Origin: Cyanidium caldarium
Taxonomy: Eukaryota > Rhodophyta > Bangiophyceae > Cyanidiales > Cyanidiaceae
NCBI GenBank assembly: GCA_026184775.1
Contig: JANCYW010000003.1
Span: 372,001-436,000 of the forward strand
Direction: 5' to 3'
DNA length: 64,000 nt
Below the pieces are notes generated by a model, which was given only the letters and a program-made list of their open reading frames with translations, did no database searches and was not told where the DNA came from. Position 1 is the stretch's first letter. Each line of letters begins with the position of its first letter. Positions 11,280-57,200 of this stretch are shown piece by piece. Made by a program: the position numbers and the translations under genes.

Positions 11280-12926
11280 ATGGGCGACGCGGTTGGCGAT
11301 CATGTCGGCCCGAACGGACCGCAGGCGGTGCGGGCCAATGGGCCGGCGCGGGAAACGGTAGCGCGCGCCACCACCCCGCTGGGCGTGTTGTCCGCGTCGA
11401 CGCGCTCGCTCTGGGCGCACGTGCAGCAGCGATACTTGCGAGAGCGGGAGACGGGCAACTGGGTGAACCTGCGGTACATCTTTTCGGGATATCGGACGCT
11501 GGATTTGGCGTACAACCTGTCGCCGGTGTTGTTCGGGGCGCTGCTCGCGGTGGCGTTCGCCACGGTGTACGAGGCGTATCATACGGCGCCGGCGCTATCG
11601 CTGTTGGGCAGGCGGTATCGCTACAACATCATCGAGGCGGCGGTGCTGCTGATCGCGTTGGTGGCGGGCGTGGTGGTGTATGTGGTGGTGCGTCGGCGCG
11701 GCGTGTTTCTGGTGGATTATGTGACGTTTTTGCCGCCGGAACGGCTGCGCGTTTCGTACGATGCCTTCATGCGTTTGACCGCCGAGTCGGGTTGCTTCTC
11801 GCAAGAGTCCATGGACTTTCAAATGAAGCTGTTGCATCGGTCGGGCGTGGGCGAGGAAGCCTACTTTCCCGCGGCGATGTTTCAGGCCAAGGAGATCGCC
11901 GCGCATGGCGGTAACGGCGCCGCAGTGCTGAATATGCAAAGCGCCCGCGAGGAGGCCGAAATGGTGCTGTTCACCGTGGTGGAGCAGTTGTTGCGCAAGA
12001 CGCATACCCGCGCGCGCGACATCGACATCCTCATCGTGAACTGTTCGCTGTTCAATCCGACGCCGTCGCTGTCGGCCATGCTCGTCAACCGCTTTCAGAT
12101 GAAGTCCAGCGTGCGTACGTACAATTTGGCCGGCATGGGTTGCAGCGCCGGCCTCATCGCCATCGACTTGGCGCGCGACCTGTTGCAGTGCCACCCGCGA
12201 TCGCGCTGCCTGGTGGTGAGCACCGAGAACATCACCCAAAACTGGTATCTGGGCGCCGAGCGCAGCATGCTCCTCACCAACACCCTATTTCGCCTCGGTG
12301 GCGCTGCAGTGCTGCTGAGCAACCGTCTGTGGGATCGGTCGCGCGCCAAGTACGCCCTGCTCCACACCGTGCGCACGCATCGCGGCGGCGACGACCCGGC
12401 TTACGGCTGCATCTACCAGGAGGAGGACAAGGCAGGCATTCGCGGCGTGCGCCTGTCCAAGCAGATTATGGAAGTGGCCGGTGAGGCAGTGCGCGAGAAC
12501 ATCTTTCGCCTCGGCCCGCTGGTGTTCCCGGTAGATGTTCACGTTCGCTTTTTCACCAACCTCCTTCGCCGTCGCTACCTCCGCCAGCGGCACTTGAAAC
12601 CGTATGTGCCCGATTTTCACCGCGCTTTCGACCACTTTTGCATCCACACCGGTGGCCGCGCGGTCATCGACACGCTGGAGTCGTCGCTGAAGCTGACGCC
12701 GCAAGACGTAGCCCCGAGTCGTTATGCGCTAGAGCGGTTCGGCAACACCTCGTCGGCGTCTATCTGGTACGAGCTGCAGTATTTAGAACGCAACGGCAAG
12801 ATGCGCCGCGGGCACCGCACCTGGCAGATTGCCTTCGGGAGTGGATTCAAGTGCAACTCGGCGGTGTGGAAGGCGCTGCGGCATATTCGCCCTGACGAGG
12901 CGGCGGTCTACGCGACCACGGAGTAG
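11280..12926 (+). CDS. 3-ketoacyl-CoA synthase (FAE1/KCS type)
   Basis: Condensing enzyme of ER very-long-chain fatty-acid elongation, of the plant/algal FAE1 type and not the ELO type. The 548-residue product has two N-terminal membrane spans (about residues 80-100 and 118-138, e.g. AAVLLIALVAGVVVYVVV), then the full thiolase-fold domain. The catalytic triad is intact: Cys288 in NLAGMGCSAGL, His456 in FCIHTGGRAVI and Asn489 in ERFGNTSSASIWYEL, with the His-Asn spacing of 33 usual for the family. GSGFKCNSAVW is also present near the C-terminus. It is full length for the family apart from an N-terminal extension of about 60 residues. Confidence 0.95.
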   Translation: MGDAVGDHVGPNGPQAVRANGPARETVARATTPLGVLSASTRSLWAHVQQRYLRERETGNWVNLRYIFSGYRTLDLAYNLSPVLFGALLAVAFATVYEAYHTAPALSLLGRRYRYNIIEAAVLLIALVAGVVVYVVVRRRGVFLVDYVTFLPPERLRVSYDAFMRLTAESGCFSQESMDFQMKLLHRSGVGEEAYFPAAMFQAKEIAAHGGNGAAVLNMQSAREEAEMVLFTVVEQLLRKTHTRARDIDILIVNCSLFNPTPSLSAMLVNRFQMKSSVRTYNLAGMGCSAGLIAIDLARDLLQCHPRSRCLVVSTENITQNWYLGAERSMLLTNTLFRLGGAAVLLSNRLWDRSRAKYALLHTVRTHRGGDDPAYGCIYQEEDKAGIRGVRLSKQIMEVAGEAVRENIFRLGPLVFPVDVHVRFFTNLLRRRYLRQRHLKPYVPDFHRAFDHFCIHTGGRAVIDTLESSLKLTPQDVAPSRYALERFGNTSSASIWYELQYLERNGKMRRGHRTWQIAFGSGFKCNSAVWKALRHIRPDEAAVYATTE

Positions 12927-28552: not shown

Positions 28553-31500
28553 CTACTCGACGCGTTCCCCCGGCAACGATAAATGCTGCTCCCGCGCCAG
28601 ACGCGCAAAGTGCGAACTCGACTGCTGCAACAGCGCCGCCGGCGGTCCGCTCTCCACCACCCGCCCGTCCGCCATCGCCAGGATGAGGTCGCAGTCCATC
28701 ACCGTCTGCAGACGGTGCGCGATAATCACCAGCGTGGAGTGGCGCAGATGCCGCCGCAGCATGCACTGAATCCACTGATCGGTGCCGTAATCGAGACTGG
28801 AGGTACTCTCATCCAACACCACCACGCGAGAACGCCGCAACAGCGCTCGCGCCAAACACAGCAACTGTCGCTGACCGCCGGACAAGTTGCCACCGCCATC
28901 GGCCACCGCCGTGTCCAGATCGATCGCGGTCGCGGCCGCTGCCAGCGGGTGCATCACGCCACCGTCTCGCTCCTCCTGCTCATCGGACGGCAACAGGCGC
29001 ACTTGTCGCAACACCCGCCGCAGCGCCGCATCCGTGTGCTCCCCGAACGGATCCAGGTTGCCGCGCACCGTGCCCGAGAAGATGATGTTGTGTTGCGCCA
29101 CCATGGCCAGTCGCTGGCGCAACTGCAACAGACCGACGCCGGCGATATCCACAGCGTCGATGCAGATGCGGCCATCCTCCAGCGGGTCGCCCACGGTGCG
29201 AAACAGCGCTTGCGCCACCGACGATTTGCCGGCGCCGGTGCGCCCCACGATGCCCACCCGCTGACCGCCCTCGATACGAAACGACACACCGCGCAACACC
29301 GGCGGCAGCTCCGGTCGATATCGCAACCACACGTCCTCGAAGGCGATGGCGCCGCGCGACGGCCACACCGACGCCTGCGGCAGCTCGGCCGCCGATTCCG
29401 GCGGCGGTGGTATGCCCGGCACCCATTCGGTTGCCTCGTCGGGCACCTCCCAGTGCACCCGCTCCACCGCATTCATGTTGTTTTCTACATCGGCGCTGGT
29501 GCGCACCAGCCACGACAGCGACTGCGTGGTCATCAGGGCGTAGCTGATGGAGAGGCCGGCGGCGCCCGCGCTGACGTAACCGCGCGCCAGCACCGCGGCC
29601 ACGGCGGAGGCGAACACGATCAGCGCGCCGCACAACTCCAGCCGCAGCGACAGCCACCGATTGCAAGCCACCGCGTAGAGAAACGGGCGGGTGCTGTCCT
29701 GAATGAGGCGCTCGTTGACCGCGCGGTGCTCGCCGCCGTACCCGAACGCGCGCACCACCTGAATGCCGCCGACGGTCTCGCCCATGTGCTCCAGCAGCGG
29801 CGACTTGGTGACCGCCTCCAGACGCTTCAATTCGCGCGATGTGCGCAGGTAGAAGCGGGCGATGCGCGAATAGAGGTAGAACGTGGGCGCCAGCACCGCC
29901 AGCACCGCCGGAGTCACGTACGACAGCACCGCCATGACGCCGGCCACTTGGAACAGCGTGTTCAGACAAGACAGCATCGACGACGGCAGGTGCTGATCGA
30001 CCGCGTCCTGGTCTTTGCTGAAGCGGTTGAGGATGCGGCCGGTGGGGGTGGTGTCGAAGAACCAGCTGGGCGCGCGCAGCACCCGCTGCAGCAGGCGGGA
30101 GTGCAGACGGCGGGCGGCCACCAGACCGCCCAGTGCCGCCAGCACCGCCCGCAGCAGCAGCAGCGTGGAGGTGGACAGCGCCAGCAACAGATACAGAAGG
30201 AGGTAGTAGGTGGTGGAATGCGGAGGGGGAGCGGCAACGCTGACGGCGGCCGCGCGTGATAGGAGCTGCGGTGGAGGCCGAGTGATGCTGCTGTCTTCGT
30301 TCAGCACCGTCAGCGACGACCGCTCGATGTGCGGCACCTCGTTGTTGCACACCCCATACCGACACCACTGCATCCGTGAGCGATGTCCATCCACTCCATC
30401 GTTCGATGCTGACGCGTCGTTGCTGTTCGACCACACGCTCAACCACGAGTCGGTGGATACGCGCGACACTTGCGACAGCGCGCCGGCCACCAGCAGTGCC
30501 AACAAGAACAGTGCGCCGACAGCCTTGAAGTAGGTGAGGTAAACGTGCGTCTTCACCGAGCCGGTCTCGCGTTCCTCGTCCACAATCAGCTGACCGCGTT
30601 TGCGCCGCGGATAAGGCGACGGGGCGAGTTTGGTATCGCCGTCGGCCGCAGCGAGAGGCGCGGAGCGCTCCGGGTATGTCTTGGCTGCCGCAGATACCGG
30701 CTGCGCTTCCGAGACGGTAGCAGAGGCCGCATCCTGGTTGGATCCGTGCGCATCATCCGCCAGCGACACCGGCACTAGCGCTCCGTTGCGGTCATCGCTC
30801 ACAGCAGTGGTCGGCGCCGCGGCCGGCTTCATCTGCCACCGCAAGTACTCCTCGTAGGTGCCGCAGCCGGTGATGTGCCCCTGGCTCATACATACAATGC
30901 GGTCTGCGCGGTGCAACCACTGCGTGTGATGCGTGACCAGGATGCGGGTGCGATGGCGCGCCAGCGGCCCGCACAGGGCCAGCTCGAACAGCACGCGCCC
31001 CACACCGGCGTCCACCGCGGACAACGGGTCGTCCAGCAGCAGCATGGGCGCGCGGGAGTAGATGGCGCGCGCCAGGGCCACGCGCGCCTTCTGGCCGCCG
31101 CTCAGGTTGATGCCTTTGCTGCCGATCTCGGTCGCGTCGCCGTCGTCTAGCAGGGCGATATCGTCCACCAGCGCGGTGGCCTCCAAGGCCGCCGCATATC
31201 GTTGCGCGTCGTACTCGGAGAAGAACACGATGTTATCGCGCACCGATGCGTTGACAATGTACGGTTCCTGTGGCGCGTACGCCACGCTGTCGCCGTGTAG
31301 ATATGGCAGCGGCGGGGACGCGGCAGCAGCACCCGTCGGTATGGCGTACATCTCGCCCAGCAGCGCTTGCAGCAGCGACGATTTGCCGCTGCCCACGTCG
31401 CCCATCACCATCACCAGCTCGCCGCGATGGATGCGCAGGCAGATGTCGTGCAAGATGATGGGCGGTCGCATCGGGACGGCGTCCACCGCCGACGCGGTCT

Positions 31501-33487
31501 CCGGCAGCATGTGCTCGGTCTCGTCGGTGGTGCTGCGTCGATACGCCTTGGACGGTAGGTGCCACGGCGGTTCGTAGGAGAAGGACAGGTGCTCTACGTG
31601 GACCACCACATCGGATGCCTCGGTATGGGCGGCCTCCGTAGAGTGGTGTGCGTTGACAGTGTCTGCTGACAACGGCAACGCCGGTTGCATCGGCACTCGC
31701 TCCTTGTAGGGCGCATGGTTGCCCGCTGCGGCGGCGGCAACAGACAGGTCGCTGGTCCGCGCCACCGCTGCGCCGTTCACCAACGACTCCTGCTCTTCGT
31801 CACTCACCGTTCCCGCCGCCTCTCTGTGTAGTGGCCGGGTCCTCACCTCCGCCTCCTTACCCACGCTCTCCTCATCGCCTCCCACTTCGTTCCTTCCCTG
31901 CGCTCGACCGGGCACCTGTTCGTGCAGCAGGTAGGCCTGGATGCGCGACAGGCTCACATACGCGTCAATGAGCGAGGTGATCACATCGGGAAAGACACTG
32001 AGCGGAAACCGGAGGATATTGAAGAGTGCCAGGGCGGTGAACGCCCGCGAGGCCGTCAGCCGCCCCTCGCCGTCCGACAGGGCCATGAAGGCGAAGCTCA
32101 CCGCGGCGGTCAGCACCGGCGCTGCCGCCCACAAGAAATTGGCCACCGCCTCCACCAGGCGTTTCTGTCGCAACACCGTCAGTTCGCGCTGCCGCACCTG
32201 CTCCACGCGTTGCAAAAAGGCGCGCTCCCACCCCATCACTTTGATCTGGCGGATGCCCAACAGCACCTCGTTCATCAGGTGCACCCGCTCGTCTTTGCAG
32301 TGCATCAAGGCGTCGCTCAGCTGTTGTTCGCGACGGGCCACCACCATGTTGAGCGGAATCAGCGCCGCCATGAACAGCAGACCGGCCAGCGATGCCAGCC
32401 CAATCACTCTATACAGCATCACCAGCGACACGATGATCTGGAACGGGCCCGACCAGGTGACGTGTAGGTACGGCGTCAGGTCCACCGACGCTTTCTGCGC
32501 ATCCACCGCGATGAGGTTCACCACTTGTCCGGCGGAATGCTGGTTCCGCGACGCTATCGACAACCGCAGCGTCTTGCGGTAGATGGCCGCCGCCAATGCG
32601 GCGCGCGCATGGCTGCCGGCGCGGTAATTGAGGTGAAAGTAGTGCTGCAAACAGAACGACTGGCACAGCTGCGCCATCATCAACAGCGACGCGTAACCGA
32701 TGCCGCGCAGCAGCGCATCGGTGCGGCTGACCGATGTCTCCGCCATGAAACTCAGCAGCCGTTGCAAGACGGTCGGCCCAGCAAAGTTGAGCAGGTCGCA
32801 CACCACCTTGATGGGCATGGAGGCGAAGAAGCGCGCACCGCACAGCCGCAACAGCGCCAGCACCAGCGCGGTGGCTCGGGCAGTATGCCGCTCGCGGTCT
32901 CGACTTAGCGGCAGCTCCGGAGGCATATCACTGCAGATTACCGCCGCCTCCAGGTCAGCACCTTCCACGGTGTCGGTGATGAGATGCGGCTCGCGCTGTC
33001 GTTCATGGATCGGTATCGGGCGAGCGGCGCGCTGACGCACCAACCGTCCCGGCGCCTCCACCACACCGGGGCGTTGTCGCTGCCAGACGCGCTCAAAACG
33101 CTGTGATAGCGCGCACACGTCGTCCACTCCACTCAGCTGCCACAAGTCGCGCATTCGCAGCGGCCGTCGCGCGCCCAGCTCCAGCAGCGGCTGCAGCCAG
33201 CCGAACGTCAGCCGCGCCCACCACGAGTCGTGAAACTCGGGATTCTCCACCCGCTCCGACACTAGACTCGGCACCGATCCGTCCACGTCTTCCTCTTCAG
33301 CATCGACCTCCCTCTTTGCGGTTGTCGGGGGCACGGTCCGGTACGCGGCCGCGTCGTGCCCTCTCTCCCCCGATCCGCGTTCCCTTGCACGCTGCCCGCT
33401 CGATGCCTCCCCGTTCCCCGTTCTATCCTCTATCCTGTGCATATCTCTCTCCACCGAACCTTCTCCACGCTCCCTCATTGCCCGCAT
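28553..33487 (-). CDS. ABCC/MRP-type full-size ABC exporter
   Basis: A full transporter of about 1640 residues for glutathione conjugates or organic anions, likely vacuolar or plasma membrane. After a Ser/Glu-rich N-terminus comes WWARLTFGWLQPLLELGARR (linker L0, no TMD0), TMD1, NBD1, TMD2 and NBD2. NBD1 has Walker A GDVGSGKSS, signature LSGGQKARVALARA and Walker B LLLDDPLSAVDA, with Asp where the catalytic Glu would be, as is normal for ABCC. NBD2 has GRTGAGKSS, LSGGQRQLLCLARA and VVVLDESTSSLD with the catalytic Glu. The start is uncertain: Mets at 33622, 33487 and 33442 are all in frame; 33487 leaves about 240 bases to the divergent methyltransferase gene. It ends 67 bases from the MT-A70-like stop. 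Confidence 0.93.
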   Translation of the reverse strand: MRAMRERGEGSVERDMHRIEDRTGNGEASSGQRARERGSGERGHDAAAYRTVPPTTAKREVDAEEEDVDGSVPSLVSERVENPEFHDSWWARLTFGWLQPLLELGARRPLRMRDLWQLSGVDDVCALSQRFERVWQRQRPGVVEAPGRLVRQRAARPIPIHERQREPHLITDTVEGADLEAAVICSDMPPELPLSRDRERHTARATALVLALLRLCGARFFASMPIKVVCDLLNFAGPTVLQRLLSFMAETSVSRTDALLRGIGYASLLMMAQLCQSFCLQHYFHLNYRAGSHARAALAAAIYRKTLRLSIASRNQHSAGQVVNLIAVDAQKASVDLTPYLHVTWSGPFQIIVSLVMLYRVIGLASLAGLLFMAALIPLNMVVARREQQLSDALMHCKDERVHLMNEVLLGIRQIKVMGWERAFLQRVEQVRQRELTVLRQKRLVEAVANFLWAAAPVLTAAVSFAFMALSDGEGRLTASRAFTALALFNILRFPLSVFPDVITSLIDAYVSLSRIQAYLLHEQVPGRAQGRNEVGGDEESVGKEAEVRTRPLHREAAGTVSDEEQESLVNGAAVARTSDLSVAAAAAGNHAPYKERVPMQPALPLSADTVNAHHSTEAAHTEASDVVVHVEHLSFSYEPPWHLPSKAYRRSTTDETEHMLPETASAVDAVPMRPPIILHDICLRIHRGELVMVMGDVGSGKSSLLQALLGEMYAIPTGAAAASPPLPYLHGDSVAYAPQEPYIVNASVRDNIVFFSEYDAQRYAAALEATALVDDIALLDDGDATEIGSKGINLSGGQKARVALARAIYSRAPMLLLDDPLSAVDAGVGRVLFELALCGPLARHRTRILVTHHTQWLHRADRIVCMSQGHITGCGTYEEYLRWQMKPAAAPTTAVSDDRNGALVPVSLADDAHGSNQDAASATVSEAQPVSAAAKTYPERSAPLAAADGDTKLAPSPYPRRKRGQLIVDEERETGSVKTHVYLTYFKAVGALFLLALLVAGALSQVSRVSTDSWLSVWSNSNDASASNDGVDGHRSRMQWCRYGVCNNEVPHIERSSLTVLNEDSSITRPPPQLLSRAAAVSVAAPPPHSTTYYLLLYLLLALSTSTLLLLRAVLAALGGLVAARRLHSRLLQRVLRAPSWFFDTTPTGRILNRFSKDQDAVDQHLPSSMLSCLNTLFQVAGVMAVLSYVTPAVLAVLAPTFYLYSRIARFYLRTSRELKRLEAVTKSPLLEHMGETVGGIQVVRAFGYGGEHRAVNERLIQDSTRPFLYAVACNRWLSLRLELCGALIVFASAVAAVLARGYVSAGAAGLSISYALMTTQSLSWLVRTSADVENNMNAVERVHWEVPDEATEWVPGIPPPPESAAELPQASVWPSRGAIAFEDVWLRYRPELPPVLRGVSFRIEGGQRVGIVGRTGAGKSSVAQALFRTVGDPLEDGRICIDAVDIAGVGLLQLRQRLAMVAQHNIIFSGTVRGNLDPFGEHTDAALRRVLRQVRLLPSDEQEERDGGVMHPLAAAATAIDLDTAVADGGGNLSGGQRQLLCLARALLRRSRVVVLDESTSSLDYGTDQWIQCMLRRHLRHSTLVIIAHRLQTVMDCDLILAMADGRVVESGPPAALLQQSSSHFARLAREQHLSLPGERVE

Positions 33488-33729
33488 TACCCCATCCGAT
33501 GCGCTTTCACTTGCGCCACCACGCGCACACTCGCCGCATCCCCTCGCGACACCGAAGAAGAATCGCCCGCGGCCATCAGCGCGGCCGACACCCTCGACGC
33601 CTCGCTTCTCGGGGCTGGGCATATGCGGCTCGGTGTGGGTGGTCCGCAGAGAGCGCGCCCCTCACCACCACCGACCGACCGACCGACCGCGCGTAGGAAT
33701 GCACCGCGACTCCACCAGGGTAGGATAGA

Positions 33730-35308: not shown

Positions 35309-37768
35309 CTACTCCCTGACTCCCTTCTCCATCGAGTGATGCTCCGAGACTGAATGCTCGCGCTCCACGCTCTCGATAAAGGTCTCCACGTCGGCACTGC
35401 ACGCCGCCTCGCGAGCGCCCTTGTACAGCGGCCGCGGCCGCCAGCGCACCACCGTCAGCAGAATGCAGGCGATGACGGTGAAACCGAAAAAGTATGCGAT
35501 GACGATCGCCACGTCCTTCCACTTGTAGGACGGGCTCGACGAGAACCCGTACTGCTTCGAGATGTACTGGATGCCGTCGGTGATCGGACACACCTGATAC
35601 GCCTGTGGCACCCCGGACGGTTGCAGCTCGCTGGGCGTACAGGTGAAGGTGATGCCGTCAAACTCGTTCAGCATCATGCCTTCGTAGGCGTAGTGGAACG
35701 GGTTGATCCAGTAGACCCAGATGAGGTAGTCGGGGATGTTGGGCGGCGTGGCCAGAAAGCCCACGCTCAGCACCATCAGCATGATCAATAGACTGCCGAT
35801 CACCAGCGCGATATCGGCGTACGGCGTCGCGTACGCCACCGCCTTGAGAAGGATGTTCACCGCCATGCCCACCAGCCACACGATGAGGATCGCGTAGCCA
35901 AACGGCGGGCCGCCCTGCAGTTTGGTCATGTGAATGACGATCACCAGAAACAGGAACGTCTCCAGAAACTGGATGGGGATGTCCAGCACCCACTGCGAGA
36001 AAAAGTAGGGCGGCATCTCGTAAAAGCCGGCGCGCCGCTGTTTGCGCACCACTTGCAACATGCCGGCCACGGCGGTGATGGACGAGAAACCGGCCACACC
36101 CACGATGAGCAGGATGAGGAAGATAAGTCCTTCGCGCACGGTCACACTGAGCTGGTCCTTGCTGAGGCCGAAGAACAGACACCCAATCACAATGCCCAGC
36201 ACCACATAGCGAAAGATGCGCACGCCCAGCGAGAACGGCGAGAGCAGCTGCATGCGCACCTCCCGCTTGAAACAGGTGGCGGTCTGGCGGGTGCGTTTTT
36301 GCAGCGAGTTGCGCTGGAACAGCTTGCCCAGCTCCACGTACCGCTCGCTATGGAACGCCTGCTGTTGGTCTTCGGTGAGGTAAGAGCGCGACTCCACGAC
36401 TTCGCGGTAATGCTGCGCGATGGACGAATTGCGGTACACTTCGGCAAACTCCGCAGGCGTGCGCGGCGCGCGCCTCTCATACCCCGGCCGGATGCACCGC
36501 GCCGACTGCTCCGGATCGCCGATGGTGGCCAAAAACTCGGGCAGCAGGCGCTTGCGCGGCCGTCGATAGCCGATCTCGTAAAAGTAACGTTCCGCATCCT
36601 TGGTCGGCCCAAAGTACAGGATCTTGCCGGCCTCCATCAGCATCACCTTGTCGTACGAATTGTAGATCTCCTGGCTCGGTTGTTGCATCACCGATATGAC
36701 GGTAATGTGGCGCTGTCTCGCGATGGCCGTCACACGCTCCTGCAGGTCCATCGCGGTGGCCGCGTCCAGACCGCGCGTCCACTGGTCCAACATCCAGATC
36801 TGGCTGGAGAGGCGCAACGTCATCTCACCGATGGTCACGCGCTTCTTCTCGCCGCCACTGACGCCGCGCATCATATCGTTGCCCACGATGGTGTCCTGGC
36901 AGTGAGTCAACCCGAGCGACCGGATCAATAGCGTGACGCGGTCCTTACGCACCTTGTCGGCAAAGGGGAAGAAATCCGGAATGAGGCACTCGGCGGCGAA
37001 CATAAACGTCTGCCGCACTGACAACGTGGCCACGTGTACGTCGGATTCCTCCACAAACTGCACAATATGCTGTAGCGGCGGCAGCGTGTTGCGCTCCATG
37101 GTGCCCAGGTCGTGGCCGTTGTACTCCACGGTGCCGCGGATGCGAGCGTAGTCACGCAAGTTTCGCTGCGCCAACACGTTCAGGAAGGTGCTGGTGCCGG
37201 AGCCCGGCGGCCCTAGGACCAGCAGCGTCTCTCCGGGCAGCACATAACCGGTGGCGCCGTCTACGATCGGCTCCAAGTGCGTGCCCGGCCCGTCCTTGCC
37301 GCGCCGGATCACATCCAGCCAGAGCCACTTGAGAACATCCAACACCTGCGACGGTATCGCCAGCGCCAAGTCGCGCACGCGCGTGTACACCGTCTCAATA
37401 CCCAGCTTACCGTACACCACCGGCACGTCCACGGTCAGGTCGTTCCAGCCCAGCGCTATCGTCGGCGGGCGCAGCAGCATCGCCGCCTGCATCTCCCGCA
37501 CCTTGTTGGCGTACGCCTCCCCGTCAAAATGCGCCTCGTTCTCGATATCGTACCGCGGGTCGGTCAAAAAGTCCGCGTGCTCCCTCTCCACCTGCTTCCG
37601 CAGCGCGTCCAGCGCCCGCCAGTTCACCCAGCCGCTGGCCCACCTGCCCATCAGGCGTCGCGGCGCCAACGACAGCAGCCAGCTCTCCTTCACCAACTCA
37701 TCCTGCAGCTTTCCGCGGTCTTTAGGGTCTGGTGTGTAAGTGCGCATAGGCTTGGACCGTTCCGCCAT
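35309..37768 (-). CDS. half-size ABCG transporter resembling the N-terminal half of a PDR pump
   Basis: An 819-residue product with NBD then TMD (ABCG order). It matches the first half of fungal-type pleiotropic drug resistance pumps, including their characteristic decay. Walker A reads GPPGSGTSTFL (Lys replaced by Thr, about residue 190) and Walker B is MLDQWTRGLDAATAMDL (no catalytic Glu, like the WDNxTRGLD of fungal NBD1), but the signature VSGGEKKRVTIGEM is perfect. Six membrane spans follow, with a C-terminal extracellular loop carrying Cys residues (FTCTPSELQ, YQVCPITDG) before the last span. The start is the Met at 37768 (MAERSKPMRTYTP); the frame is open to 38101. Head to head with the complementary half at 38025. 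Confidence 0.9.
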   Translation of the reverse strand: MAERSKPMRTYTPDPKDRGKLQDELVKESWLLSLAPRRLMGRWASGWVNWRALDALRKQVEREHADFLTDPRYDIENEAHFDGEAYANKVREMQAAMLLRPPTIALGWNDLTVDVPVVYGKLGIETVYTRVRDLALAIPSQVLDVLKWLWLDVIRRGKDGPGTHLEPIVDGATGYVLPGETLLVLGPPGSGTSTFLNVLAQRNLRDYARIRGTVEYNGHDLGTMERNTLPPLQHIVQFVEESDVHVATLSVRQTFMFAAECLIPDFFPFADKVRKDRVTLLIRSLGLTHCQDTIVGNDMMRGVSGGEKKRVTIGEMTLRLSSQIWMLDQWTRGLDAATAMDLQERVTAIARQRHITVISVMQQPSQEIYNSYDKVMLMEAGKILYFGPTKDAERYFYEIGYRRPRKRLLPEFLATIGDPEQSARCIRPGYERRAPRTPAEFAEVYRNSSIAQHYREVVESRSYLTEDQQQAFHSERYVELGKLFQRNSLQKRTRQTATCFKREVRMQLLSPFSLGVRIFRYVVLGIVIGCLFFGLSKDQLSVTVREGLIFLILLIVGVAGFSSITAVAGMLQVVRKQRRAGFYEMPPYFFSQWVLDIPIQFLETFLFLVIVIHMTKLQGGPPFGYAILIVWLVGMAVNILLKAVAYATPYADIALVIGSLLIMLMVLSVGFLATPPNIPDYLIWVYWINPFHYAYEGMMLNEFDGITFTCTPSELQPSGVPQAYQVCPITDGIQYISKQYGFSSSPSYKWKDVAIVIAYFFGFTVIACILLTVVRWRPRPLYKGAREAACSADVETFIESVEREHSVSEHHSMEKGVRE

Positions 37769-38024
37769 GGCTCCGCACCCCGACGGACCTGTGGAGTAGC
37801 AGGCACTCAAGAGTCCACCACGACCGTCCACCGCCAAGATGCGCGGCCTGGACGTGTCCAGCGCCGAAACTCGGTTTGCGCACGCCTCGTCGGAGCTGAG
37901 CGTTGCGCTCGGGTGCGCGTCCAGACCACGGGCTAAGGGGGGTGCCTGAAAAGAGTGCAGCTCTCCAGGAGGCGTGCAGTGGCAGTGTGAGTGGGGGGCA
38001 GGAGTGTACCAAGTCGGAGAGGGG
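37769..38024. promoter_or_regulatory. 256-base shared promoter region of the two half-PDR genes
   Basis: This is the only DNA between the chosen starts of the two head-to-head half-transporters, and both frames read open into it, so it must drive both genes. Sharing it would help equimolar expression of two subunits. No named motif is recognised. Confidence 0.5.
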
Positions 38025-40496
38025 ATGACACCAGAGTCAGAAGACGGGTCGGTACCGGGGGCAGCTGGGGAGGGCGGAGTGAACGACGGGGCGCCGCCCA
38101 ACGGTCACCTCGACGCCAGCGCCCCTGCGCTCCCCGAAGACCACGCGGTGCCGGACGGTTTGCACGCGATGCGGCGTGGCGATGACAGTGTCGTGTCGGA
38201 CAGGATGCACTCGATCCGCAGCGTGTCGGACGTGGACTGGCCGCGCACGCCGACGGCCAGCAAACGGCGGAGCACACACCTGAGTCACGACGCCAATCGG
38301 AGTTATGCGCCGAGCATGAGCGCCCCAGAGTTGTCGTTCTCGCCGCTGCCGCACCCCACCGTGGTGTTCACTTGGCGCGGCGTGCAGTACTGGGTGCCGG
38401 CGCCGGCGGCAGTGACCGGCCGGCGGCGGTTTCGCTGTTTCCGCTTCGGTCGCCGGCAGGCGGACGAGGCGAAGCAGCCAGAGGGCAACGACGAGGAGAA
38501 GCAGGCGAGCGCATCGGACGAGACCAACGAGGAGGTGGGCGGTGTGGAACCGACTGCACCGATGACCGAGGCGCCGCCGCCGCAGTTGTCCAACAACGCG
38601 GTGGATGAGGAGAGCGGCATGCTGGCGCTGTTGATGAACGTGACCGGTTACTCGCAGCCGGGTCGGCTGACGGCGCTGTGCGGATCGTCGGGCGCGGGCA
38701 AGTCGACGCTGCTGGACGTGTTGGCGAATCGCAAGACCAAGGGCCGCATCGAAGGCGATATCCGGAGCAACGGCGAAACCGTCAATTATGAACGTCTGAA
38801 GCACTTTATGGGCTATGTGGAGCAGCGCGACCTGCACATCAGCAAGCAGACAGTGGAGGAGGCGGTTCTGTTTGCGGCCCGCACGCGCCTGCCTCCGGAC
38901 ACGCCGGATGAGACTGCGCGAGAGTACACCGAGCACATTCTCACGGTGATGAACCTAGCACCGGACCGCAAGCGCCTGGTGGGCAGTGATGAGGAGGCGA
39001 ATCTGTCGGGTGTGATCACGAGCGATGCTCGCAAACGCCTGTCGATGGCGGTGGAGTATGCCGCCAACGCGGCGTTGTACTTTTTGGACGAGCCGACCTC
39101 GGGGCTGGATGCGCGCTCGGCGTTGCGGGTGATTCGTGCCATCCGCGCCATGGCCAACAACCAGCGCTCGGTGGTGGCGGTCATCCACCAGCCGTCGTAC
39201 GAGGTGTTCAGCGCGTTCGATGACCTGTTGCTGCTGCGGCGCGGCGGCCGCACGGTGTACTTTGGCGAACTGGGCGACGCTTGCACCATCATGACGGATT
39301 ACTTTGCGCGGAACGGGGCGGATCCGATTGACGACCGCAGCAACCCGGCGGACTACATGCTGCGGGTGATCGGCGCCGGCGTCAGCGGTCGCCGTCCGGG
39401 CGACATCAAAGACTGGGCGGAGATTTGGCAGCAGTCACCGGAGGCCAAAGCGGCCGACGCCAATCTGGACGAGTTGGTGGCCTCATCGCAAGGCGCAGAG
39501 CCACTGGAGTACAAGCCACCCAACCAGAAGCAGCAATGGCGGCGGCTTTACTACGTTACTCGGCGGCAGCTGATCTCGTACTGGCGCACGCCCAACTACA
39601 ACTTTTCGCGGTACGTGCTGGCGATCGCACTGGGCCTGATGATTGGCCTCTTCTTCCTCAAACTGCCGCGCAACAACAGCGCGCTGGACGCGTACGTCTC
39701 GGTGCTGTACCTGTCGCTACTGTACGCGGTTTTCCTCATTCAGAACGTGTTGACGCCTACCTTTCAGGAGCGTTCGGCGTTTTACCGCGAGGTGGCCTCG
39801 GGTACCTATCACCCCGTCGCGTACGCGCTGGCGATCGGCTTTGCGGAGTTCCCGTACACGATCATCGGGTCGGTCATCTACACGCTGCTGGTGTATTTCA
39901 TGGTCGGCTATCCGGCCACCGGTTACGGCTACTTTTTGTTCATGAACATCCTCTTCTCGCTGTATTCGGTGAGCTTGGGCCAGCTGCTGGCGGCGCTGCT
40001 GAGTTCGCAGTTGGTGGGCGTGATGTTGGCCGGCATGTTGATCCCGCTGCAGAACATCTTCTCCGGTTTCCTGGCGCCGTACCCGGAGATTCCCCACTGG
40101 CTCTGGTGGGCGTACTACGCCAATCCGTACCGATGGGCGCTGGAGGGCATCGTCGTGTCGGCGCTGACGGATTTGCCGTTCCACTGCGATGCCGGCGAGT
40201 ACGGCTTCTTCCCGTTGCCGCCGCAGTTTCACGGTGACTGCAGCGACGGCGGTGCGTTGCCGTACGGGAACGTGACCTCGCCGGCCACCTGCCAGTCGGC
40301 CGGCGTGCGCGTCGCCAGCGGATCGGTGGCGTGCTGCACCTACTGCCCGGTGACCAGCGGCAATCAGATCATCGCCAAGTATGGCCTGCATTCCAACTGG
40401 CGATGGATCGACATCGGCGCCATGTGCGGCTTTTACGCGCTGTACCGCGTCGCCACCGTCTTGACACTGGTGTATGTGCGGCATCTGAACCGGTGA
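38025..40496 (+). CDS. half-size ABCG transporter resembling the C-terminal half of a PDR pump
   Basis: An 823-residue product, NBD then TMD. After a Ser/Glu-rich N-terminus, VVFTWRGVQYWVP marks the PDR NBD2 entry. Walker A is GSSGAGKSTLLDVLANRKT (about residue 220), the H-loop is VIHQPSYEVFSAFDD and Walker B is ALYFLDEPTSGLDA, all canonical. The signature region is SGVITSDARKRLSMAVEY, where PDR NBD2 normally has the already weak LNVEQRKRLTIGVEL. PDR-like landmarks in the TMD include IPHWLWWAYYANPYRWALEG and a large Cys-rich loop (SVACCTYCPVTSG) before the last span. It ends in VYVRHLNR. It is complementary to the divergent gene at 35309-37768. Confidence 0.92.
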   Translation: MTPESEDGSVPGAAGEGGVNDGAPPNGHLDASAPALPEDHAVPDGLHAMRRGDDSVVSDRMHSIRSVSDVDWPRTPTASKRRSTHLSHDANRSYAPSMSAPELSFSPLPHPTVVFTWRGVQYWVPAPAAVTGRRRFRCFRFGRRQADEAKQPEGNDEEKQASASDETNEEVGGVEPTAPMTEAPPPQLSNNAVDEESGMLALLMNVTGYSQPGRLTALCGSSGAGKSTLLDVLANRKTKGRIEGDIRSNGETVNYERLKHFMGYVEQRDLHISKQTVEEAVLFAARTRLPPDTPDETAREYTEHILTVMNLAPDRKRLVGSDEEANLSGVITSDARKRLSMAVEYAANAALYFLDEPTSGLDARSALRVIRAIRAMANNQRSVVAVIHQPSYEVFSAFDDLLLLRRGGRTVYFGELGDACTIMTDYFARNGADPIDDRSNPADYMLRVIGAGVSGRRPGDIKDWAEIWQQSPEAKAADANLDELVASSQGAEPLEYKPPNQKQQWRRLYYVTRRQLISYWRTPNYNFSRYVLAIALGLMIGLFFLKLPRNNSALDAYVSVLYLSLLYAVFLIQNVLTPTFQERSAFYREVASGTYHPVAYALAIGFAEFPYTIIGSVIYTLLVYFMVGYPATGYGYFLFMNILFSLYSVSLGQLLAALLSSQLVGVMLAGMLIPLQNIFSGFLAPYPEIPHWLWWAYYANPYRWALEGIVVSALTDLPFHCDAGEYGFFPLPPQFHGDCSDGGALPYGNVTSPATCQSAGVRVASGSVACCTYCPVTSGNQIIAKYGLHSNWRWIDIGAMCGFYALYRVATVLTLVYVRHLNR

Positions 40497-40781
40497 GGTG
40501 GTGTGGCCGGAGATGGTGGAGGGATGTGACGGCAGGTGGTGGAGGCGGCTAGGCGCACAGACGGGTGGATATGCAGGCGAGGTGTGGTGTATGGACAGGA
40601 CAGGCATCCGACGGGAAGGTGGAGCTGAGGACCGGTGCCGGAATGTGTAGTGAATGGTAAACGAACGATATCGGGGAGAGTGCTGCAAGGGTTGTGGTCC
40701 TCGACGTGTCGAACCTGTTCCTACCTTCGGCGAAGCGAGTGCCACTGCAACGTTTCTCGCGCCACTTGCGAACGTGTCTCT

Positions 40782-41618
40782 ATGTCGTCGGGGAAGCGAG
40801 CCGTCAAAGCCACCAGCTTTGCTTGGGCAGAAGCGCCTGACATCCGCAGCGTGCATCAGGCGCTGGTGAGGGCGTACGGCGTGCGCAAACGCCCGGCACG
40901 ACGACGCACGCCGGAGCCGCTGCTGGACGTGCTGATTCGCACGGTGCTCTCGCAAAACACCACCGACGCGCTGAGCGAGCGGGCATACCGACAATTGCGA
41001 CAGCGCTTCTCGCGATGGTCGGAGGTGCTGTCGGCGACGCAACAAGAGGTGGAGGGGGCCATTCGAGTGGGTGGTTTGGCGCGCGTGCGCGCTCAGCATA
41101 TACGCGATATCCTGCAGCGGGTGGCCGATGCCAGGGGCGTGCAACGAGTCTGCGGCCATGAAGACCTTTCCCTGGAGCACTTGCAGGCGTGGAGCACGCC
41201 TGATGTAATGCAGGCGCTGACGCAGCACCGCGGAGTCGGTCAGAAAACCGCCGCCTGCGTGGTGTTGTTCGGCCTGCGCCGCGACGATGTGTTTCCGGTG
41301 GACACGCATATCCATCGCGTCGCCCAGCGACTGGGATGGTTGGGGACGGGGGTTGCTCGCGAGGACACACAGGCGGCGCTGAACGAGGCGGTACCGGATG
41401 CGCTGAAGTACGCACTGCATTTGTTGCTCATCGCCCACGGGAAGCGGGTGTGTCGGGCGCGCACGCCGCGTTGTGCTGAATGTGTGTTGGCGCCACTGGG
41501 TTGCCGCTGGTACGCAACGGCCGACAAGGTCGATGCTGCAGATATCGAGGGTGTGGGCGACGGGAGGAGGGGGCAGATGTCGCGGAAACGTCGACGGAGC
41601 GGAGGTACGGAGAGGTGA
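40782..41618 (+). CDS. endonuclease III-like HhH-GPD DNA glycosylase
   Basis: A 278-residue base-excision repair enzyme. TPEPLLDVLIRTVLSQNTTD is the helix pair at the start of the domain. The helix-hairpin-helix and active site read LTQHRGVGQKTAACVVLFGL, with the Lys of bifunctional glycosylase/AP-lyases, and the catalytic Asp is in VFPVDTHIHRVAQRLGW. A [4Fe-4S] loop follows: C-x6-C-x2-C-x6-C in VCRARTPRCAECVLAPLGC, one residue longer in the last gap than E. coli Nth. It resembles the plant EndoIII-like/DEMETER-related single-domain enzymes. The C-terminal Arg-rich tail (SRKRRRSGG) overlaps the opposite-strand membrane-protein gene by 191 bases. The Met at 40782 is chosen (frame open to 40635). 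Confidence 0.85.
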   Translation: MSSGKRAVKATSFAWAEAPDIRSVHQALVRAYGVRKRPARRRTPEPLLDVLIRTVLSQNTTDALSERAYRQLRQRFSRWSEVLSATQQEVEGAIRVGGLARVRAQHIRDILQRVADARGVQRVCGHEDLSLEHLQAWSTPDVMQALTQHRGVGQKTAACVVLFGLRRDDVFPVDTHIHRVAQRLGWLGTGVAREDTQAALNEAVPDALKYALHLLLIAHGKRVCRARTPRCAECVLAPLGCRWYATADKVDAADIEGVGDGRRGQMSRKRRRSGGTER

Positions 41619-43026
41619 GGGGGAAAGGGATCGGTTCCCGCTTGCAACACACATGTGTGGCGATGAAGCCCTGTTTGTGGGTGGGCAGACCGCACTCGAC
41701 ATGACGCATACATGTGGGCGTCTCCGGTGGCAGGAAGAGCACCGCATGGATAGCCAACGTCGCCAGCACCATGGTGTTCTGCACCAACGTGTACCAGAAC
41801 GTGTACAGCGGCACGCAGAACGTGTTGCCCGTCCAGTGCGACAACGCCGGTCGATACATAAAGCTCAAGGCCGGTGCGCCCTCGGCCGCGATGATCAGCA
41901 ACTGCAGGGTCACAGAGTGGATTGTCAGAGCTGCCGCCGCCAGAACCGACGTCATGAACATGCACACAACGACCACTGGGGTCGCAGACAACAGAATCCG
42001 GTGCCCACGCTGCTGTCGACGGTAATACAGGTTATGGAGCCGGTTCAGGAAACGCCAGGCCCAGCGCATTTCGCACACCGTAAAGGCGATAATGGCCAAC
42101 CCCATGGCGGTCAACACCGCGGTGAATATCGACACACCGTCGGGCACGTACGACAAGTAGACGTCGATGCGCACGACGGTGATCCGCGTCACCAGTGGGG
42201 TACGCGCTGGGACATCTCGGGTGTAGAACGCAAAAGTCAGCAGCACGGCGGCGTGCGCGACGAACACCAGCGCCGGCGATCCGAGCAGCTGCCACCAGGA
42301 GAGGCGCGCCAGCACCACCGTCATGATCGAAGTGTCCCGATAGAACAATAGGTTGCCAACCACTTCCTCGACGAATAGCGTCGTGGAGTGCACCCGTTCG
42401 CATTGGGCCGCCTGCGCCAATGGGATCACCTGGCCGATGGGCTGCAGCTCCCACATCAACACGAACGTGAACACCGCCCTAGCGTATGGCACGCGCGTGC
42501 GTTCGCTGGGCGGCACGGCGCAGAGGCGCGCGTTGAAGTAGACGCAGTTGATGTAGCTGCGGGCCACCTCCACCGGACCGGTCACGGAGAACCCCAGCAC
42601 GATGCTGCGCTGGATGAGAAACGTCGAAGTGCCGATGACGTTGGCACAGCTAATGAGGCTCACGTTGGCGGTCAGCGACACTGCCACCAGAGTCCGCAGC
42701 AAGTGCAAGATGGGGTTCGTGTGGGTGGAGTCGAACACCTCGAACTTTTCTAGCGGCGGTCGAGTTGTCATCGCCGGCATAGACTCGCAGGTGGAAGGCA
42801 GGCTGTAAGTCGATATGCGCTCGAGAGAGGAGCTGCCCAGTTGGTATGTGGCCTTGTATGCCTCCGCATCGGGCAGGTGCGACAACTGGCACCGGACTTG
42901 CGACGAGCACCCTGACCGCTTCACGATCGTCTCTTGTGGCAACTGACACGGTCCACTGGGGTCGTTTTCCGGCTCCAACGCGACAGCCACCGTGGGCACT
43001 TGGGGCGGTGCCATCCCGAAACGCAA
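41428..43026 (-). CDS. unknown multi-pass membrane protein
   Basis: I do not recognise the family. The 532-residue frame has a hydrophilic N-terminus of about 100 residues, followed by roughly six to eight hydrophobic segments, for example AVFTFVLMWELQPIGQVIPL, LLGSPALVFVAHAAVLLTFA, SIFTAVLTAMGLAIIAFTVC, TPVVVVCMFMTSVLAAAALT and MVLATLAIHAVLFL. Between them lie short basic loops (MRWAWRFLNRLHNLYYRRQQ). The last about 85 residues are Pro/Arg/Ser-rich and overlap the DNA-glycosylase gene on the other strand. The hydrophobic pattern supports a real protein. The true end could be earlier only if the gene is spliced, for which I see no evidence. Confidence 0.62.
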   Translation of the reverse strand: MRFGMAPPQVPTVAVALEPENDPSGPCQLPQETIVKRSGCSSQVRCQLSHLPDAEAYKATYQLGSSSLERISTYSLPSTCESMPAMTTRPPLEKFEVFDSTHTNPILHLLRTLVAVSLTANVSLISCANVIGTSTFLIQRSIVLGFSVTGPVEVARSYINCVYFNARLCAVPPSERTRVPYARAVFTFVLMWELQPIGQVIPLAQAAQCERVHSTTLFVEEVVGNLLFYRDTSIMTVVLARLSWWQLLGSPALVFVAHAAVLLTFAFYTRDVPARTPLVTRITVVRIDVYLSYVPDGVSIFTAVLTAMGLAIIAFTVCEMRWAWRFLNRLHNLYYRRQQRGHRILLSATPVVVVCMFMTSVLAAAALTIHSVTLQLLIIAAEGAPALSFMYRPALSHWTGNTFCVPLYTFWYTLVQNTMVLATLAIHAVLFLPPETPTCMRHVECGLPTHKQGFIATHVCCKREPIPFPLTSPYLRSVDVSATSAPSSRRPHPRYLQHRPCRPLRTSGNPVAPTHIQHNAACAPDTPASRGR

Positions 43027-54917: not shown

Positions 54918-57200
54918 CTAGGACGCCTGTGCGAGCGGCTGCGGCCGGGCCTCCAACACGTCCATCACCTTGCACACCGCGTCCGGAATGCGGGTGCCCG
55001 GCCCGAATATCAGACACACGCCCGCGCGGTACAGCGCGTCGTAGTCTGGGCGCGGAATCACCCCGCCGCACACCACATGCACGCCGTGGGCGCCGCTTTG
55101 TCGCAGTAGCCTCACCAGCTCGGGCACCAGCGTGCGGTGCCCGGCCGCCTGCGATGAAACGCCCACCACGTGCACATCCGCCGCGATGGCCTGTCGCACC
55201 ACCTCCTCGGGCGTCTGAAACAGCGGCCCAACATCCACATCGAAACCGAGGTCGGCGAATCCGGCAGCGATGGCTTTGGCGCCGCGGTCGTGGCCGTCCT
55301 GTCCCACCTTGGCCACCAGCAGACGCGGCCGGCGGCCTTCGCGTTGCGCAAACGCCTCCACCCGCTGCAAAATATGCTCCAACGGGATGGCGTCGGTGTG
55401 GCTGCGTTCCAGCTGGGCGCGGTAGACACCGCGCGCTACGGAGCCGCTGGGCACGTGTTCGCCGAACACCTCCCGCAACGCATCGCTGATTTCGCCCACG
55501 GTGCACCGCAGTCGCGCCGCCTCGATGGAGGCGGCCAGCAGGTTCGTGCCGGACGTCCGCGCCGCGGTGCGCAACTGCTCCAGAGCGCGCCGCACCGCGG
55601 TGGCATCCCGGGCAGCGCGCAGCTGTTCTAGTCGGGCACACTGCTGCCGGCGCACCGCTTCCGCGTCGATCGCCCGCACATCCACATCGCCGCCGCTGCC
55701 GCTGGCGTTCCTGTCGGTGGCGGCAGTCTCTCTCGAACTGGCGTTCTCGGCGACAAACTTGTTCACCCCGACGATCACCTCCTCGCCGGCATCGATACGC
55801 GCCTGCCGCCGCGCGGCCACCTGTTCAATGCGCGACTTGGGCCAGCCCTGCGCGATCGCCTCGGCCATGCCGCCGCCGCGCTCCACTTCATCGATCAGGG
55901 CGCGCGCTCGCTGGGCCAGCTGTGCCGTGAGCGACTCGATAAAATACGAACCGCCCAGCGGGTCGGCCACCCAGGTCATGCCGGTCTCGTTTTGCAGAAT
56001 GAGTTGGGTGTTGCGGGCGACCCGGGCGGCAAACTCGCTGGGCAAGGCGATGGCCTCGTCCAGCGCATTGGTGTGTAGGCTCTGCGTGCCGCCCAGGATG
56101 GCCGCCATTGCCTCCACCGTGGTGCGCACCACGTTGTTCAACGGCTCCTGTTCGGTCAGCGAGTAGCCGCTGGTCTGACAGTGGGTGCGCAGCAGCAGCG
56201 ACCGCGGGTTGCGCGGGGCAAACTGCTCTTGCACCAGCTGCGCCCACAGCTGGCGCGCGGCACGTAACTTGGCGATCTCGATGTAGAACGGCATGCCGAT
56301 GCCGAAAAAGAACGACATGCGCGGCGCCACCTGGTCCACTTCCAGTCCGGCCTGCTGAGCACACCGCAGATACTCGATGCCGTCGGCCAGGGTGAACCCG
56401 AGTTCTAGGGTGGCGTCCGCGCCCGCCTCCTGCATGTGATACCCCGACACCGAGATGGTGTTGAAGCGGGGCAGGCGCTGCGCGCCGTACCCCATGATAT
56501 CGCTCACAATGCGCAGGCTCGGTCGCGGCGGATAGATGTAGGTGTTGCGCACCATGTACTCTTTGAGGATGTCGTTCTGAATGGTGCCGTTGAGCTGTTC
56601 CGGGCGCACGCCCTGCTCGGCGGCGGCCACGATAAACATGGCCAGCACCGGCAGCACCGCCCCGTTCATGGTCATGCTCACCGAGGCGGTGTCCAGCGGA
56701 ATGCCGGCGAACAGCTGCTTCATGTCCTCCACCGAGTCGATGGCCACGCCCGCCAGCCCAACGTCGCCAGCGACGCGCGGGTGATCCGAGTCGTACCCGC
56801 GATGGGTGGCCAGGTCGAACGCCACGCTCAGCCCGGTCTGACCGGCGGCCAGCGCGCTGCGGTAAAAGCGGTTGCTCTCCTCGACGGTGCTAAAGCCGGC
56901 GTATTGTCGGACGGTCCACGGCCGGAGGGTGTACATGGTGGCGTGCGGCCCGCGAGTATACGGGAACACGCCAGGCAGCTCGCCGGCAACCGCGGACGGC
57001 ACATCGCGGGCAGTATAGACCGGTTTAATGTGCAGACCGCCCTCGGTCTCGCGGCACAGAGCGTGGACCGGTTGGTGGGATCGGGACAGCTCCCTCTCCG
57101 CCAACGCGCGCCAAGCCGGAGGGAAAGAGGTGTCTGAGCAGTGTCTAGAGAAGAGGCGCGGGATGAATGTCCGGTGAGTGAGTCGGTAGGGATAGTTCAT
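54918..57200 (-). CDS. methylmalonyl-CoA mutase, adenosylcobalamin-dependent
   Basis: A 760-residue mitochondrial enzyme converting methylmalonyl-CoA to succinyl-CoA. A short basic leader ([20 protein letters not shown]) precedes the TIM barrel: [75 protein letters not shown] and [16 protein letters not shown]. The C-terminal B12 domain has the base-off motif [15 protein letters not shown], with the axial His near residue 636, then [10 protein letters not shown] and VVCGGVIP. It is full length with no lost catalytic residue. Presence implies cobalamin use and propionate or branched-chain/odd-chain catabolism. The N-terminus is within 156 bases of a divergent small gene. Confidence 0.97.

Follow-up and report, generated by a model that had tools for sequence, protein, structure and literature searches.

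Two adjacent genes in a 64,000-nucleotide stretch of Cyanidium caldarium DNA (contig JANCYW010000003.1, positions 372,001 to 436,000; hereafter the window) probably encode a split drug-efflux pump of the PDR type known from fungi and plants. In this pump, a half with a dead ATP site and a half with a live one would form a heterodimer, and the pair would have arisen by the splitting of a fused, asymmetric gene. By definition, a PDR pump is a single chain in which one ATP site is dead and the other live, and whose two halves are separated by a nucleotide-sensing linker. In the window, the N half is encoded on the minus strand (35309..37768; 819 amino acids) and the C half on the plus strand (38025..40496; 823 amino acids). 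Each consists of a nucleotide-binding domain (NBD) and a membrane domain (TMD), in the order NBD1-TMD1 and NBD2-TMD2, respectively. The original prediction had proposed a PDR pump split into two half-transporters with complementary dead and live sites, and profiles, trees, structural alignment and motifs support the two as N-half and C-half genes with such sites.

Identity of the Two Halves

The proteins were compared with TIGR00956, a PDR (full-size ABCG) profile of 1394 positions built from full-length proteins, and with the half-transporter profile TIGR00955. The minus protein matches positions 70-692 of TIGR00956 (386.6 bits, against only 279.5 bits for TIGR00955) while the plus protein matches positions 769-1389 (469.4 bits, against only 326.1). 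We regard these complementary matches as the strongest single result for half identity. Both proteins contain the Pfam domains ABC_tran and then ABC2_membrane. Pfam PDR_CDR is found at the C-terminal end of the minus protein above the cut-off, and PDR_assoc at that of the plus protein below the cut-off. In phmmer searches against solved structures, the minus protein scores 221, 195 and 185 bits with PDR N halves and 65, 80 and 60 bits with C halves, while the plus protein scores 260-270 bits with C halves and 111-129 bits with N halves. Scores with ABCG5/ABCG8 are 112-142 bits for the minus and 111-123 bits for the plus protein, and the PDR halves score far higher.

The trees included both halves of Pdr5 and of two Cdr1 proteins, taken from printed alignments, and the half-size ABCG1 and ABCG2; for ABCG5, ABCG8 and plant ABCGs, bit scores were used instead. 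In the maximum-likelihood tree of halves, the minus protein groups with the Pdr5/Cdr1 N halves (support 100/99) and the plus protein with the C halves (97/96). The grouping persists when the catalytic motif columns are masked (100/98 and 94/96, respectively), when the TMDs are used alone (82/86 and 84/88), and in an NBD-only tree with bacterial ABC relatives as outgroup (100/98 and 94/93). This outgroup came from a scan of genome contigs, in which only bacterial ABC proteins matched.

The half-size NBD-TMD architecture and the head-to-head position would also fit a pair of ordinary ABCG/WBC duplicates that have diverged as neighbors. The original prediction had itself named a common grouping of both halves as such duplicates as the outcome that speaks against it. 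In approximately unbiased (AU) tests, a sister relationship of the minus and plus proteins was rejected both in the set of halves (p 0.0006) and for the NBDs with the bacterial outgroup (p 0.006), and their grouping with ABCG1 and ABCG2 was rejected as well (p 0.0001). The rejection of sisterhood argues that the two are not ordinary ABCG/WBC duplicates, and with ABCG1 and ABCG2 as references, a tandem duplication of a WBC gene was discarded as hardly credible.

Local features separate the halves in the same manner. Between the H-loop His and the Gly of the GX2-3CP motif, the spacing is 38 in the minus protein, as in PDR N halves, and 43 in the plus protein, as in NBD2 of Pdr5/Cdr1; it is 38 in ABCG1/ABCG2. 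Like PDR pumps, the plus protein carries a five-residue NBD2 insertion before the NPXD/E helix, made up of an extra Gly and a GX2G insertion (GELG, amino acids 414-417, 39264..39275, plus strand; spacing 43 vs 38). A published analysis (PMC8544900) reports the extra Gly of NBD2 for all full-size ABCGs and the four-residue GX2G insertion for the PDRs of plants and fungi only; the symmetric cluster F pumps are reported to lack the latter. Both NBDs carry the motif T-[FL]-L-[DKN]-x-[AIL], which follows Walker A and is defined as a PDR feature (PMC4890005), as TFLNVL at 194 (minus) and TLLDVL at 228 (plus).

Structures of the single chains were predicted with shallow alignments of bacterial ABC proteins. 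The mean predicted local distance difference test (pLDDT) scores are 63.0 and 61.7. The cores reach 70-90, while the termini, linker-side loops and last extracellular loops stay below 50. With models of this middling quality, structural Z-scores for PDR and other ABCG proteins are practically equal, and the alignments inform only on which half is chosen. In every PDR entry among the matches listed, the minus model aligns to Pdr5/Cdr1 residues 86-798 and the plus model to residues 855-1502. Taken together, the data identify the minus gene as the PDR N half and the plus gene as the C half.

Complementary ATP Sites

The ATP sites of ABC transporters are composite. In the minus protein, Walker A (GPPGSGTST, amino acids 186-194, 37187..37213, minus strand) has Thr in place of Lys, the Q-loop (FVEESD, 238-243, 37040..37057) has Glu in place of Gln, and Walker B (323-335, 36764..36802) has Gln in place of Glu. 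The Walker B region reads MLDQWTRGLD from amino acid 326, with the D-loop TRGLD as in fungal NBD1. The H-loop His is replaced by Gln (amino acid 362, 36683..36685) in the context VMQQPS. The ABC signature of the minus protein is intact (VSGGEKKR, 303-310, 36839..36862) and would complete the live site of the partner. The plus protein is the exact reverse. Its Walker A (GSSGAGKST, amino acids 220-228, 38682..38708, plus strand), Walker B (ALYFLDEP, 350-357, 39072..39095; FLDEPTSGLD from amino acid 353), Q-loop (YVEQRD) and H-loop (IHQPS) are intact, and its signature is degenerate (ITSDARKR, 331-338, 39015..39038) and would face the dead site. The motifs quoted in the original prediction are thus all present; its list of losses in the minus half was right on the Walker A Lys and the Walker B Glu and incomplete in that it missed the Q-loop Gln and the H-loop His.

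Asymmetric composite sites with a degenerate site 1 are a PDR trait, and the asymmetry between NBD1 and NBD2 that the original prediction stated for full-length fungal and oomycete pumps holds for the fungal PDRs Pdr5 (PMC8421411) and Cdr1 (PMC4890005). The substitutions themselves differ, with Walker A Lys to Thr in the minus protein and to Cys in Pdr5/Cdr1, Walker B Glu to Gln versus Asn, and H-loop His to Gln versus Tyr. The Q-loop position is Glu in Pdr5 too, at E244 (PMC8421411). Chance resemblance of the motifs was considered and rejected.

Since the sites are composite, pairing of the minus with the plus protein would create one catalytically complete site and one that lacks all catalytic elements. 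Homodimers could not provide a complete site, as a pair of minus proteins would have no catalytic residues and a pair of plus proteins no good signature. It is unlikely that the two are independent half-transporters that form homodimers or pair with other partners. Fungal half-size PDR-like proteins are thought to dimerize with themselves or with other halves (PMC9426558), which offers a precedent, but independent halves would be at odds with the lack of a complete ATP site in either homodimer and with two adjacent, divergent genes that derive from opposite halves of one protein. Complementarity of the motifs argues strongly that the proteins most likely pair as a heterodimer. In a heterodimer, site 1 (Walker A and B, Q-loop and H-loop of the minus protein with the plus signature) would bind ATP without hydrolyzing it. 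Site 2 (Walker A and B, Q-loop and H-loop of the plus protein with VSGGEKKR of the minus protein) would hydrolyze ATP and drive export in a Pdr5-like manner.

Gene Structure and Layout

The two open reading frames (ORFs) have the positions, strands and lengths of the original prediction. They lie head-to-head, and transcription diverges from a gap of exactly 256 bases between the start codons (37769..38024; 66.8% guanine plus cytosine, GC). The gap may serve as a shared promoter from which the pair would be co-expressed. A scan for bacterial-type promoters found no match in these 256 bases, a result from a bacterial model that is uninformative for a eukaryote. GC at the three codon positions is 0.60/0.41/0.85 for the minus ORF and 0.61/0.47/0.84 for the plus ORF. 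These values are coding-like and typical of the window's real genes, and those of the overlapping antisense ORFs differ.

It is very improbable that the arrangement is an assembly artefact or the decaying remnant of a fused gene. The arrangement is known from a single window of one assembly, which speaks for an artefact, but each ORF is complete with its own ATG and stop, has a strong third-position GC bias and encodes all core domains. At the linker position there are a 48-amino-acid tail on the minus protein and a 113-amino-acid head on the plus protein, both without recognized similarity, and an upstream stop at 37947 closes the plus reading frame. The head (38025-38363, plus strand) is of low complexity and predicted to be disordered. 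Within NBD2 of the plus protein, a further 76 amino acids are inserted between the first strands (38394-38621, plus strand) and are likewise predicted to be disordered. The minus protein keeps a 50-amino-acid loop where NBD1 of Pdr5 has the LD1 insertion, the first part of the linker domain.

Origin of the Gene Pair

Most likely, a fused and already asymmetric PDR gene was split in two. One inversion of the segment with the promoter and the N half, if one of its breakpoints fell in the linker, would produce the head-to-head layout in one step and would place the old promoter between the halves. Cluster F pumps are described as the common ancestor of plant and fungal PDRs (PMC8544900). If these pumps are both basal and fused, the pair would derive from a fused, asymmetric pump that was split later.

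The reverse history, in which an ancestral two-gene heterodimer that was asymmetric before fusion gave rise to the fused fungal and plant pumps and was kept here as a relic, appears improbable. Neither half falls within the yeast N or C clade, which would hold for any outgroup to the yeasts, and the absence of the linker motif described below would fit a pre-fusion pair. However, the five-residue NBD2 insertion of the plus protein includes GX2G, which is reported only in fused plant and fungal PDRs (PMC8544900), and the minus protein has its dead-site pattern in common with fungal NBD1. With this insertion and this dead site, the pair would belong among the fused, asymmetric pumps. Of the two histories that the original prediction left side by side, splitting and inversion is thus favored by the published insertions, and the pre-fusion state is disfavored.

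Several observations weigh against a split PDR pump of this origin. The motif MQKGEIL of the Pdr5 linker was not found in either protein with the pattern xQKG[ED], so that linker coupling must differ. When the plus TMD is compared by itself, its simple pairwise scores with PDR C halves are no better than those with PDR N halves or ABCG1. Placement in the TMD-only tree is weaker than in the other trees, and taken alone the TMDs give modest evidence. In the tree of halves, the minus protein sits on a long branch (1.5). All full-length references come from three yeast pumps that are related to one another, with no plant, oomycete or cluster F PDR among them, and the argument that fusion came first depends on the published statement about cluster F (PMC8544900).

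Relation to Known Transporters

The pair has the N-half- and C-half-specific homology of PDR pumps and not their single-chain (NBD-TMD)2 layout, being two divergent ORFs. It resembles Pdr5/Cdr1 in half-by-half homology, NBD-TMD order, a dead site 1 and a live site 2, the GX2G insertion in NBD2, the T-[FL]-L-[DKN]-x-[AIL] motif that follows each Walker A, and a CxxC that aligns in the last extracellular loop. It differs in consisting of two genes in opposite orientation, in its lack of MQKGEIL and in the 76-amino-acid insertion in NBD2. Without the single chain and the linker motif, the pair is best regarded as a PDR-derived, split variant, PDR-like in its predicted working, and not as a standard member of the family.

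The closest mechanistic precedent, which the original prediction did not name, is human ABCG5/ABCG8, a heterodimer with one live site whose genes share a 374-bp intergenic promoter (PMC7961684). In this heterodimer, Walker A of ABCG8 and the signature of ABCG5 are non-canonical (PMC8544900). Both systems have two divergent half-transporter genes with a short gap (256 bases here and 374 bp in human) and a poor Walker A in one partner and a poor signature in the other. They differ in that ABCG5 and ABCG8 are both ordinary ABCG halves, and the sequence scores do not indicate orthology with the window pair. As these scores are much lower than those with PDR halves, the window pair seems to have arrived at the ABCG5/ABCG8 solution starting from the halves of a PDR pump, and the likeness in layout looks convergent. 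The Pdr6 clade of Cryptococcus neoformans also includes a half-size protein placed in the PDR group, but the parts of the source that were seen mention no adjacent partner half.

Searches of the open-access literature turned up no PDR pump split into a head-to-head pair, and IMG/VR returned no relatives for the plus protein or for alignments of NBD1 and NBD2. If the reading as a split pump is true, the pair would be a natural two-gene PDR without the linker motif, and both the covalent link and MQKGEIL would be dispensable. The dead and live halves could then be expressed, mutated and titrated separately, and an arrangement like that of ABCG5/ABCG8 would be reachable from a fused pump.

Other Features of the Window

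The window is eukaryotic, compact and apparently intron-poor, with about 64% GC. In such a setting, an FAE1-type synthase together with a B12-dependent mutase (both listed below) may point to a protist or alga more than to a land plant. Only an NDUFAF7-like methyltransferase gene separates the minus half from a full-size ABCC/MRP-like ABC transporter of 1689 amino acids with two ABC_membrane and two ABC_tran domains (28553-33622, minus strand), at a distance of about 1.7 kb. A 676-amino-acid open frame (39717-41747, minus strand) overlaps the plus half and the neighboring HhH-GPD gene in antisense; its codon-position GC suggests a by-product of high GC and no gene. Other genes of the window encode DHHC, SCAMP and OCRL/RhoGAP proteins, an AP-type sigma chain, an FAE1-type 3-ketoacyl-CoA synthase (11280-12926, plus strand) and a B12-dependent methylmalonyl-CoA mutase (54918-57200, minus strand).
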